From Variovorax sp. DXTD-1 (GTDB taxonomy: Bacteria; Pseudomonadota; Gammaproteobacteria; Burkholderiales; Burkholderiaceae_C): a stretch of 64,000 bases of DNA. The stretch lies in NCBI RefSeq assembly GCF_003984625.1, contig NZ_RWKH01000009.1, positions 1 to 64,000 of the forward strand. The letters are read 5' to 3'. The notes under the pieces were generated by a model that worked only from the letters and a program-made list of their open reading frames with translations, ran no database searches and had not been told where the DNA came from. This document shows positions 1 through 61,389 of the stretch, piece by piece; position 1 is the stretch's first letter; each line of letters starts with the position of its first letter. The translations under genes were made by a program, and so were the position numbers.

Positions 1-1
1 C

Positions 2-634
2 TTAGCCCGTTGCCAAGGGGCCCGCCGGCGCGGTCTTTTCGATCTTGATGGAGCCGTCCGGCCTTTCGCAGGTGCCGATCAGCAGGCCGCTCGCCAGCGC
101 ATGCTCGCGCAGCGCTTCGACTATTTCGTCGCGCCCCGGCGTGGACGAGAACGAAGGCGCGCTACCTAGCGCAAACAACTGAAAGGCGTAACGGTGCGCG
201 CCGTGCCCCGGCGGCGGGTCGGGCGGTAGCCACGCGGCCTGCAGCCCCGAGTTGCGTCCCACCTGCAGGCCGGCCGCGCCTTCGTTGTCGCGGCTCGGAA
301 TGGCGGCCTCGTCGAGCTTGCCGTCGCTCGGCCGCAGCCCCACCACGATTGCGTGCACCAGCGGATTCGGGGTCGGCGAGTCGGCATCCTCCACCACCAG
401 CACCAACGAAGTGGTTTCCGCGGGCAGTTGGGCCCACTGAAGCGGCGGCGACAAGCCTTCGCCATCGGCCGTATAGCGCAGGGGCAGCGGCCCACGGTCC
501 ACGAATGCGACGCTGGTCAGGGCGATGGACGCCATTCCCTGCCGCATTCCGAGCGTATTGAAAACGATCTTGTCCAGGCCGGCACGCACGCCGTGCAGCG
601 CGTGGCCAATGACTTCAGGCAATTTTTCGAGCAT
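2..634 (-). CDS. YbhB/YbcL (PEBP-like) family protein
   Basis: A 210-residue protein of the phosphatidylethanolamine-binding/Raf-kinase-inhibitor-like family. The anion-pocket motif is visible as VVEDADSP at about residues 80-87, followed by PLVHAIV (the pocket His), and the second family block as PPDPPPGHGAHRYAF near 137-151. The TAA stop lies at the very edge of the window (positions 2-4), so the gene is complete. There is no signal peptide, so it is probably cytoplasmic. The cellular role of bacterial members is poorly defined; no partner gene is visible. Confidence 0.85.
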   Translation of the reverse strand: MLEKLPEVIGHALHGVRAGLDKIVFNTLGMRQGMASIALTSVAFVDRGPLPLRYTADGEGLSPPLQWAQLPAETTSLVLVVEDADSPTPNPLVHAIVVGLRPSDGKLDEAAIPSRDNEGAAGLQVGRNSGLQAAWLPPDPPPGHGAHRYAFQLFALGSAPSFSSTPGRDEIVEALREHALASGLLIGTCERPDGSIKIEKTAPAGPLATG

Positions 635-843
635 GGCTTCGGTATAGCCCCGTGCGGCAGTTCACTCTGTAGGACGCCGCTGCATGCAAGAGATGGCGGT
701 AGACCGCGCCAAATTTCTCGAACGCAAATTCGATGTATTTCCTGGCCCGTGGATCCGGTTTTGCTCCGCTATCATGATCGTTGCCTGAATCAACGGGCAA
801 TGCTTTCCCGCTTCTTCCAATTCACCGCCAAAGGAACTTCTTC

Positions 844-58804: not shown

Positions 58805-60340
58805 ATGTCCGCACCACGAACCCTCCTCTTCTCCCTCTCATGTTCCGCGCTCGCGCTTCTTCTTGCGGGGTGTGCCGTGGGGCCCGACCATCGGCCCGCA
58901 CAGGCGCAGGCGCCGGCCGATTGGTCCGCATGGCATGGCGGCTCGCCGGCGCTCCTCGGCGCCGAGCGGAATGCGGCGCCCATGGCCGCCGCGTCCGGCG
59001 ACTGGAAAGCCTTCAACGATCCGCTGCTCGACCGCCTGCAGGCGCTTGCGCTCGCGGCCAACCACGACCTGCAGACCGCCGCCCTGCGCTTCGCGCAAAG
59101 CCGCGTCCAACGCACGGCGGCGGCCGCGCAGCAGGGTCCGCAACTCAATGCCAGCGGCGGCGTCAACCGGCAGCGGCAAAGCGAGACCGGCGCCGCCACG
59201 CGGATGATCGACGCACTGGGTTCGTCGGTGTCCAACCGCGACCAGTTGATTCGCACGCTCAGTGAGCCCTACAACCTCTACCAGGCGGGCTTCGACGCAT
59301 CGTGGGAAATCGACCTGTGGGGCCGCGTGCGCCGCAGCATCGAAGCCGCCGATGCGGATACGGGCGCATCGGCCGCGCTGCTGCGCCAGGTGCAGCTGAG
59401 CGTGGAGGCCGAGGTGGCGCGCAACTACTTCGAACTGCGCGGTGCACAGCGCGAGTTGCGCCTGGCGCGCGCCGACATCGAAGCCGCCGCCGAATCGCTC
59501 GAACTGGTGCAGGCGCGTGCGAATGGCGGCCTGGTCACCGATCTGGACCCGACGCGCCAGCGCACGCAGCTGGCCGAACTGAAGGCGCGCATTCCGGCGC
59601 TGCTGCAGCAGGAGGCGCAGGCGATGAACCAGATCACGCTGCTGACCGGTGCCATGCCCGGCACGCTGAACGCCGAGCTTGCGGCGCCGGAGTCCGGCCG
59701 CGCAAGCGACATGCCCGAGGCACCGCCGCTGCCCGAGCTTGCCCTCGGCCTGCCGTCCGACCTGGCGCGCCGCCGGCCCGACATCGCCGCGGCGGAAGCG
59801 CAGCTGCATGCCGCCACCGCGCGCATCGGCGTAGCCGTGGCGGATCTCTATCCGCGCGTGACACTGGAAGCAGGCTTCGGCTTCGAATCGGTGGGCAGCG
59901 AACGTTTCGGCGAATGGGGCAGCCGGCAATGGCATATCGGGCCTTCGATCAGCCTCCCCATCTTCGACAACGGCCGGCGCCGAAGCACAGTCACGCTGCG
60001 CGAGCTGCAGCAGCAGGAGGCGGCGGTGGCCTTTCAGCAGACCGTGCTCAAGGCGTGGCACGAGATCGATTCCGCGCTGAGCGCCTATGCCGCCGAACGC
60101 CAGCGCCACGCCGAACTGGCCGAGCGCGAGCGCCACAGCCGCGACGCGCTCACGCTGGCCCAGGCGCGCTACGCCAACGGGCTCACGGATTTCGGTGTCG
60201 AGCTCGACGCCCGCCGCACGCTGCTGCAGGCACGGCGCGACCAGGCGCAAAGCACGAGCCGGCTGGCCGTGGGGCTGGTGGCCGTCTACAAAGCTCTTGG
60301 CGGCAATGTTCCGCCGGCAGCCAGCGCACCGCCGGACTAG
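58805..60340 (+). CDS. Outer-membrane efflux channel lipoprotein (NodT/OprM type)
   Basis: A 511-residue TolC-like channel subunit. The leader ends in LLLAGCAVGPDH with lipobox Cys23. Two outer-membrane-efflux repeats follow (about 60-265 and 290-495), with GFDASWEIDLWGRVRRSIEAA and RPDIAAAEAQLHAATARIGVAVADLYP as hallmarks. It is the last gene of the YbhG-F-S-R-like operon, 15 bp after the YbhR-type gene, so this system carries its own channel, unlike E. coli, where TolC is encoded elsewhere. Its 3' end overlaps the convergent ROK gene by 4 bp. Confidence 0.92.
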   Translation: MSAPRTLLFSLSCSALALLLAGCAVGPDHRPAQAQAPADWSAWHGGSPALLGAERNAAPMAAASGDWKAFNDPLLDRLQALALAANHDLQTAALRFAQSRVQRTAAAAQQGPQLNASGGVNRQRQSETGAATRMIDALGSSVSNRDQLIRTLSEPYNLYQAGFDASWEIDLWGRVRRSIEAADADTGASAALLRQVQLSVEAEVARNYFELRGAQRELRLARADIEAAAESLELVQARANGGLVTDLDPTRQRTQLAELKARIPALLQQEAQAMNQITLLTGAMPGTLNAELAAPESGRASDMPEAPPLPELALGLPSDLARRRPDIAAAEAQLHAATARIGVAVADLYPRVTLEAGFGFESVGSERFGEWGSRQWHIGPSISLPIFDNGRRRSTVTLRELQQQEAAVAFQQTVLKAWHEIDSALSAYAAERQRHAELAERERHSRDALTLAQARYANGLTDFGVELDARRTLLQARRDQAQSTSRLAVGLVAVYKALGGNVPPAASAPPD

Positions 60341-61389
60341 AAGGTATTGGTGAAGCTCGCGTTGCCAAGGCCCGTGCCGATGGTCAGCACGCCCCAGTGG
60401 GAAACGTCGCGCATGAACGGCAGCTCGCTCAGCCCTTGCACCACCGCGTCGTTGTGCATCAGGATGAGCGTGGGGCCGGAGCCGATCATCGGCATGCGCC
60501 GCCACAGCGCGCTGGGCAGGTGGAACGCGCGGCTCTGCCAGTCGCCTGGCAGGTTCTGCGTTCCGCGCTCGATCGATCCGTCCTTGCGGATCAGGCCCGG
60601 GCACGCAATGCCGATGAAGGGCGCCAGGCGGATGTCCTTGCGCTCGCAATAGCGAACCATGTCTTCGAGCATGAGCGCAATGCGCTCGACCATGTCGGTG
60701 CGGTTCGGCCCGTCGTCCGCATGTCGCCACTTCTCCCTGCGCACCACCTTGGCCTGCGACAGGTCCGAGGCCTTGCTCTGGCGCGTCTTCACGATACCGC
60801 AGCGCACGTTGGTGCCGCCGATGTCCACCGCCAGGATGGCGTCGTGCTTCTTCAGCATGGCGCGCGGGGTCAGGTGCACCCAGCCGATCAGCCCGCCGTC
60901 GTCCACATCGTGCGACAGCCGGCCGAGCTGAACGTGCACGCCCATGTCTTCGAGGATGGCTGCGGTTTGCAGAATGGCGCGCTCGCCCACGTCGCTTTCG
61001 ATGAAGCCGCCGCCCACCACGATGCGCTCGACCTTCTTCCATGAAGGCTGCCGGGTGAACCGCTGGATCACGAAGGACAGCTCCTCGGCGAATTCCTCGA
61101 TGGCACCGTGCATCAGGTCGCCGGCGGCCGAGGTCTTTTGCAGCACGCGGTCGAGCTGCTTCTTGCTGAGGTCGCGCGAGTGCTGCTTGCCGAGCGGGTC
61201 GGTGCCGGTCTTGCGGCGGCGCTTGCGCCAGCGCTCGAGCAGTTCCCGGAACGCGGTCTGGCTGGCCTGGTCGCCCACAAAGCCGTCCTTGTCGCGCAGC
61301 TGCAGGCTGTAGCCCTCCACCCGCAGCCCCGGGAGTTCGCGCAGGCCGTGAACGTCAGGGCCGGGCGGGAGATCGGTTTTCTTGTTCAT
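60337..61389 (-). CDS. ROK-family kinase-like protein with permuted domain order
   Basis: A 350-residue protein with all main ROK/hexokinase-fold motifs, but in a rotated order. The block normally near the ROK C-terminus comes first (RIVVGGGFI at 122-130 and DDGGLIGW at 163-170). Then comes the phosphate-1 motif AVDIGGTNVRCGIV (187-200), normally at residue ~5-15. GIACPGLI (260-267), the catalytic-Asp motif HNDAVVQGLSE (Asp314) and phosphate-2 GTGLGNASF (338-346) close the chain. The ROK zinc motif is absent. It is probably a sugar or related kinase; substrate unknown. The frame is unbroken. It is convergent with the channel gene. Confidence 0.75.
   Translation of the reverse strand: MNKKTDLPPGPDVHGLRELPGLRVEGYSLQLRDKDGFVGDQASQTAFRELLERWRKRRRKTGTDPLGKQHSRDLSKKQLDRVLQKTSAAGDLMHGAIEEFAEELSFVIQRFTRQPSWKKVERIVVGGGFIESDVGERAILQTAAILEDMGVHVQLGRLSHDVDDGGLIGWVHLTPRAMLKKHDAILAVDIGGTNVRCGIVKTRQSKASDLSQAKVVRREKWRHADDGPNRTDMVERIALMLEDMVRYCERKDIRLAPFIGIACPGLIRKDGSIERGTQNLPGDWQSRAFHLPSALWRRMPMIGSGPTLILMHNDAVVQGLSELPFMRDVSHWGVLTIGTGLGNASFTNTF

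Follow-up and report, generated by a model that had tools for sequence, protein, structure and literature searches.

The window (the whole 64,000-nucleotide stretch analysed, from Variovorax sp. DXTD-1 contig NZ_RWKH01000009.1) contains, on its minus strand, an open reading frame of 350 amino acids at 60337-61389, which runs from an ATG start codon to a TAG stop codon with no internal stops and is thus intact, as the original prediction stated. The phosphate-1 (DxGGT), catalytic N-D, and phosphate-2 (GTG) motifs of the ROK kinases are all present in its product, and the motif positions previously given are all right, with VGGG at 125, DDGGLIG at 163-169, DIGGTN at 189, HND at 312, and GTGLG at 338. 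The features of the gene are as follows:

60337..61389, minus strand: permuted ROK-type kinase gene, 350 codons plus stop codon
60844..61389, minus strand: residues 1-182, corresponding to the canonical ROK C-terminal part (most of the second domain), from hhalign and structure-model matches
60340..60843, minus strand: residues 183-350, corresponding to the canonical ROK N-terminal part up to the phosphate-2 hairpin
61348..61350, minus strand: His14, aligned in our alignments with the His of the canonical GExGH; the cut precedes it
61261..61284, minus strand: GFVGDQAS (residues 36-43), aligned with the canonical GC[VI]ExxxS, the zinc Cys and the Glu being lost
61006..61017, minus strand: VGGG (residues 125-128), with GGG in 71/71 sequences
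60883..60903, minus strand: DDGGLIG (residues 163-169), whose canonical place is near the C-terminus
60808..60825, minus strand: DIGGTN (residues 189-194), the phosphate-1 motif, whose canonical place is the N-terminus
60712..60729, minus strand: WRHADD (residues 221-226), in a segment longer than in the aligned canonical ROK proteins
60538..60558, minus strand: QNLPGDW (residues 278-284), conserved and not seen in the aligned canonical ROK proteins
60448..60456, minus strand: HND (residues 312-314), with the putative catalytic base Asp314
60364..60378, minus strand: GTGLG (residues 338-342), the phosphate-2 motif, here near the C-terminus

The stop codon of this gene overlaps that of a convergent outer-membrane efflux gene (58805-60340, plus strand) at window positions 60337-60340. 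Next comes a divergent gene for an OpuAC/permease fusion (PF04069 and PF00528; 61503-63056), and then a LysR gene.

Compared as a single sequence, the window protein scores 21.7 bits with the ROK family (PF00480), under the gathering cut-off of 22.9, which two of its relatives exceed (L007, 34.8 bits; L022, 32.5 bits). It likewise falls under the cut-off for glucokinase PF02685 (12.6 versus 22.1 bits) and scores 15.5-17 bits with the NCBIfam polyphosphate glucokinase, ROK_glcA, BglK, and allose kinase models, which have cut-offs of 250-550; for the 27 members of alignment A2, the best E-value against such models is 4.1e-7, and PHROGs gave no match at E<=0.001. Restoring the canonical order hardly raises the single-sequence Pfam scores (21.7 to 21.9 bits for the window protein, with 20.6 for its C-terminal half alone and 17.6 with a shuffled N-terminal half; 34.8 to 36.1 for L007; 32.5 to 33.3 for L022). 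This is nearly no gain and counts against a permutation, and we therefore turned to profile comparison instead.

A profile of 71 permuted proteins (A3) was aligned by hhalign with one of 31 canonical ROK proteins, 12 of which are close Variovorax-type relatives of one another; the E-values are those for one profile pair. In its native order the permuted profile aligned over 137 columns (score 87.1, E 1.9e-11), and un-permuted it aligned over 289 columns (score 119.7, E 2.1e-16), as against 152 columns and a score of 84.1 for a control in which the N-terminal half of the un-permuted profile was reversed. The N-terminal half matched the ROK C-terminal half with a probability of 94.7 (E 5.7e-8) and the ROK N-terminal half with 0.4, the C-terminal half matched the ROK C-terminal half with 0.5, and the reversed N-terminal half gave 0.4 to 3.2, with an E-value of 0.15 against the ROK C-terminal half. 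In a search of PDB chains, the native profile matched 4htl as three pieces in permuted order, each weak alone. Going from the native A2 profile (27 rows) to the un-permuted A5 profile (7 rows) changed the 4htl score from 17.1 to 18.2 bits and that of 2yhy, where the native match spans the N-terminal tag, from 24 to 14.3 bits; because the row sets differ, this comparison is not a clean test.

The predicted structure points the same way. The AF2 model of the window protein has a pLDDT of 90.9 and a pTM of 0.88, and in a structure search with the whole model residues 183-349 match ROK N-terminal parts. Modelled alone (pLDDT 70.2, which is middling), the N-terminal half matches residues 147-300 of 3r8e and 144-296 of 3vgk; its best VIA Z values, 8.4 and 8.2, lie close to what the tool gives as typical of common arrangements, and all of its 50 listed matches have names that we take to be those of ASKHA-type proteins. 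The two match lists share 24 PDB entries. In 23 of these the whole-model match lies within residues 176-350, and in all 23 the N-terminal half matches further along the same chain, the two matches overlapping by up to about 45 residues; the remaining entry, 3bp8, was aligned over 1..350. Among the viral structures of BFVD, the single match at E<=0.001 is a viral Hsp70. Both domains of the two-domain fold of ROK kinases (PF00480; 2yhy, a ManNAc kinase, 3r8e, 4htl, and 1woq) are therefore matched separately by the permuted protein, in swapped order. A predicted structure unlike ROK, set beforehand as an outcome that would speak against permutation, did not occur when the halves were compared separately, and the suggestion that the fold may be new is not borne out, as the half-by-half matches identify it as the ROK fold re-ordered. 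It is very improbable that only the C-terminal half is ROK and the N-terminal half an unrelated domain with VGGG and GLIG by chance: single-sequence searches found no Pfam family in the N-terminal half, and Foldseek with its model gave no match at E<=0.001, but this half is far closer to the ROK C-terminal half in profile than its reversed counterpart, and its model aligns best with ROK C-terminal domains.

A protein of the same order is encoded in 22 of 398 Pseudomonadota genomes (24 loci, all aligned; the match in a 23rd genome, L023, is a canonical ROK), so the arrangement is not a matter of chance. In a further set of 107 loci (L031-L110 and L169-L195), partly from the same genomes, an open reading frame with the signature G[TS]GLGNA was found in 104, of which 103 are distinct over their last 330 residues. 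The five motifs follow the order VGGG, DxGLIG, DIGGT, HND, GTGLG by strict pattern in 103 of the 104, with a spacing of 40/26/123/26 residues in 89 of the 103; the other, L170, is one letter off in one motif (DEAGLTG). The three loci outside this count (L037, L063, and L077) have GTGLGNV where the signature would stand, downstream of DIGGTN and HND. Among the 20 commonest tail lengths, the frame stops 5-44 residues past the signature. Whether relatives keep the permuted order, a check the original prediction had called for, is thus answered: it is permuted in all 104 signature frames and is fixed in every relative inspected across the Alpha- and Gammaproteobacteria (in the GTDB sense, which includes the Burkholderiales). 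The permuted protein is accordingly real, as first proposed, and belongs to a family rather than being a lone oddity.

The family is probably large. A protein search returned at least 8000 candidates, all at E<=1e-3, of which the 120 listed are 67-95% identical; the relatives listed from two distant members include Reyranella/Enhydrobacter and Pseudoxanthomonas/Luteimonas/Lysobacter/Stenotrophomonas. Named contigs among the best 80 of 523 matches include Variovorax, Acidovorax, Pseudacidovorax, Xenophilus, and Bradyrhizobium. Matches also occur in 206 plasmid records and cover 80% or more of the protein in 200; Rhizobium (111) and Sinorhizobium (79) account for most. Family members are usually labelled just "ROK family protein", and some sources name relatives glucokinase. 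Two genomes, G200 (L011, L025) and G217 (L012, L024), have two permuted gene copies; in each genome, one copy has as its neighbour a divergent gene encoding a product that starts with MFAVIKTGGRQYRVVP and looks ribosomal L21-like by eye. The locus L099, from a record titled Frankia sp. RB7, has a gene order and protein like those of the Bradyrhizobium loci, and its name may be wrong.

A truncated tandem ROK fusion, or a mis-called gene, could make a permutation only apparent. Tandem hexokinases exist (including human HK1/HK2), and the sequential alignment of the permuted protein spans the junction between their two copies, beginning late in copy 1 and ending in copy 2; on 1hkb, residues 33..350 align with 288..691. 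The permuted protein, in contrast, is a single domain pair: none of the 104 signature frames contains a second phosphate-1 or phosphate-2 motif, no phosphate-1 motif lies within 1.2 kb upstream on the same strand, and no VGGG lies within 1.2 kb downstream on the same strand. The duplicated upstream DxGGT that had been set beforehand as the mark of such a truncation is therefore absent, and for the sampled loci the truncated-tandem reading is refuted. With lengths of 318-416 amino acids, the 360 listed relatives are also one domain pair long, in a search that admits 0.55 to 1.75 times the query length, so that long tandem proteins could not appear among them. Overall, we regard a tandem or mis-called origin as extremely improbable. 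We also searched the 398 genomes for a canonical-order sister with the un-permuted 7-row profile, scoring up to five candidates per genome, and in 22 of them the matches are two swapped pieces of the permuted genes, with one additional 42-position fragment in G200 (26.9 bits); the sole other genome matched, G227, gave 24.5 bits over positions 3-170 only.

A permutation of the ROK order is thus well supported, with the N-terminal half corresponding to the canonical C-terminal part and the C-terminal half to the N-terminal part by both profile and structure comparison, as claimed. The proposal of one cut with the old ends joined also stands, with the cut site refined: computation places the opening of the chain after the phosphate-2 hairpin (GTGLGNASFTN) and before the GExGH region, with the junction of the old ROK ends at about residues 176-183. 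As a consequence, the chain begins within the second domain, passes through the whole of the first, and finishes with the opening hairpin of the second. We consider it highly probable that the protein descends from the ROK sugar kinases by circular permutation.

In addition to the fold, the permuted protein and ROK (PF00480) have in common the DxGGT, GxxxPG, catalytic N-D, GTG, VGGG, and GLxG motifs. Residues D189, G191, G192, N194, H312-N313-D314, G338-T-G340, and G126-G128 are kept in 71/71 permuted sequences, and position 193 is T in 66 and S in 5. In ROK kinases the zinc motif and sugar site form the pattern GExGH ... CxCGxxGCxE, in which the glutamates are sugar ligands and the cysteines zinc ligands. 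Unlike ROK, the permuted proteins lack the CxCGxxGC cysteines, and the GExGH and GCxE glutamates are not aligned with a glutamate: in a joint alignment of nine permuted and nine canonical sequences, His14 lies over the GExGH His, the only residue of the pattern that is kept, and GFVGDxAS lies over GC[VI]ExxxS. Within the family, His14 is found in 69/71 sequences (with a gap in two), and F37, G39, D40, A42, and S43 of GFVGDQAS in 71/71. A further difference from ROK is the longer first domain, with WRHADD (W221 71/71, R222 65/71, H223 65/71, D225 67/71) and QNLPGDW (N279, P281, G282, and W284 71/71; Q278 69/71). Because the motif order and the zinc and sugar motifs all depart from the canonical pattern, the permuted family should not be filed as canonical ROK. 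One canonical-order ROK, L126, is likewise without the zinc cysteines, and its DGLVWEDYAS is close to the DGFVGDxAS of the permuted family.

Judging from these residues, the family is likely to be a kinase and is not likely to have an ordinary glucose or ManNAc site, because the ATP-binding and catalytic residues are kept, the zinc and sugar ligands are lost, and WRHADD and QNLPGDW are present. For the same reason (the missing zinc site and sugar-site glutamates, together with the two other conserved segments), the substrate probably differs from glucose or ManNAc. In other respects the protein probably works like a canonical ROK member. Its two halves would come together as they do in ordinary ROK, with ATP-Mg bound at DIGGT/GTG, and the phosphate would go to a sugar or polyol hydroxyl, with Asp314 as the putative base. 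It is improbable that the permuted protein merely stands in for the usual glucokinase of the cell. PF02685 is absent from the window's genome and from the other genome of this genus in the sample, and the name glucokinase given to some relatives would agree with such a role; however, the window's genome has four other ROK genes of canonical order, and the sugar-site residues differ. PF02685 is moreover present in 14/22 genomes with the permuted protein versus 226/376 others; with no anticorrelation, there is no replacement pattern, and we rejected this role.

By our own gene calls, the neighbourhoods of the window gene and of 67 named loci, 68 in all, contain no operon partner that recurs from genus to genus, and neither do 26 additional neighbourhoods, among which gene calling missed the permuted gene itself in L188. 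A divergent trehalose-phosphatase gene adjoins the permuted gene in R. leguminosarum, R. phaseoli, two Shinella plasmids, and L186 (L169, L173, L176, L177, and L186, with a Pfam check on L169), and in S. meliloti the neighbour encodes an M42 peptidase that its annotation assigns to the NAGGN osmoprotectant system. Within two genes of the permuted gene are also found DUF892 (L180, L183), a ferritin-like protein (L100), and an ATP-dependent DNA ligase (L184); none of these stress-type genes is adjacent to it in the Phyllobacterium and Ensifer plasmids.

A sequence resembling the EcfG-type promoter, whose consensus we take to be GGAAC-N16/17-CGTT, lies at -54 to -78 relative to the starts of nine alphaproteobacterial plasmid loci (L169-L177), matching at 9/9 positions in seven and at 8/9 in two; S. 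meliloti is represented twice, and the counts ignore relatedness. Seven of the starts are annotated, and those of L171 and L175, which are unannotated, were placed at the corresponding position. In random 150-base windows from the same loci, 9/9 matches occurred in 68/9000 and 8/9 matches in 286/9000, and upstream of 41 hand-picked other annotated genes from six of these nine loci they occurred in one and three cases, respectively. Among further alphaproteobacterial loci, L183, L186, and L188 score 9/9, L182 and L184 score 8/9, and L185 and L187 are weak (7/9). Six named Bradyrhizobium loci have an 8/9 motif, which lies at -55 to -64 in five and at -197 in the sixth; 53/1200 background windows reach this score too. 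The exact pattern was found in 9/53 alphaproteobacterial loci and 0/51 beta/gamma-type loci, in a survey in which the start finder misplaced some starts. The promoters, with some of the neighbours, suggest that in several Alphaproteobacteria the permuted protein serves in the general or osmotic stress response; in the window's own genus, the link to stress consists only of the neighbouring osmoprotectant-type transporter gene.

The same observations bear on a somewhat unlikely alternative, in which the protein is a catalytically silent or weak ROK-like sensor whose role is to bind ATP or a sugar (phosphate) and to regulate metabolism, not to act as a kinase. The missing sugar-site glutamates and zinc site would be in keeping with a sensor, as would the stress-type promoter and neighbours in some genera; against it, 71/71 sequences retain the catalytic Asp and the motifs for the ATP phosphates, and no DNA-binding domain was matched in Pfam at E<=10. 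A bolder reading, which we judge about as likely as not, is that a natural circular permutation of a sugar-kinase/actin-type fold is fixed in a large proteobacterial family that phosphorylates a non-glucose sugar or polyol in the general or osmotic stress response; its new termini and the loss of the zinc site would then give a new assembly and substrate range.

Other known systems offer partial parallels. The MurK-type sugar kinases (8zo3) share with the permuted protein a ROK-like fold with a catalytic Asp; MurK is not ROK by sequence, yet its fold is very similar, and in the accessible part of its description no permutation is mentioned, the word "circular" being absent from the paper (PMC10465942). 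A literature search, with most subscription papers outside its reach, found no report of a permuted ROK protein among the titles and abstract openings listed, and none appears in the accessible parts of PMC1079889, PMC1976428, PMC3327638, PMC10465942, PMC7824862, PMC10326533, PMC7701253, PMC11046441, and PMC2876114, where circular permutation is discussed for other folds or, in PMC1079889, for groups of kinase folds generally.

The permuted proteins are a circularly permuted, zinc-less branch derived from the ROK kinases. Many proteins labelled "ROK family protein" would belong to this branch, with its own conserved segments, and it would number thousands if the remaining matches resemble those inspected; glucokinase labels on its members may be wrong. 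The family also offers a natural test of how an actin-like-fold kinase tolerates a cut inside its second domain, with bearing on folding order, hinge motion, and oligomerisation. It further suggests that rhizobia and other soil bacteria possess a kinase that has gone unrecognised and may be linked to stress.
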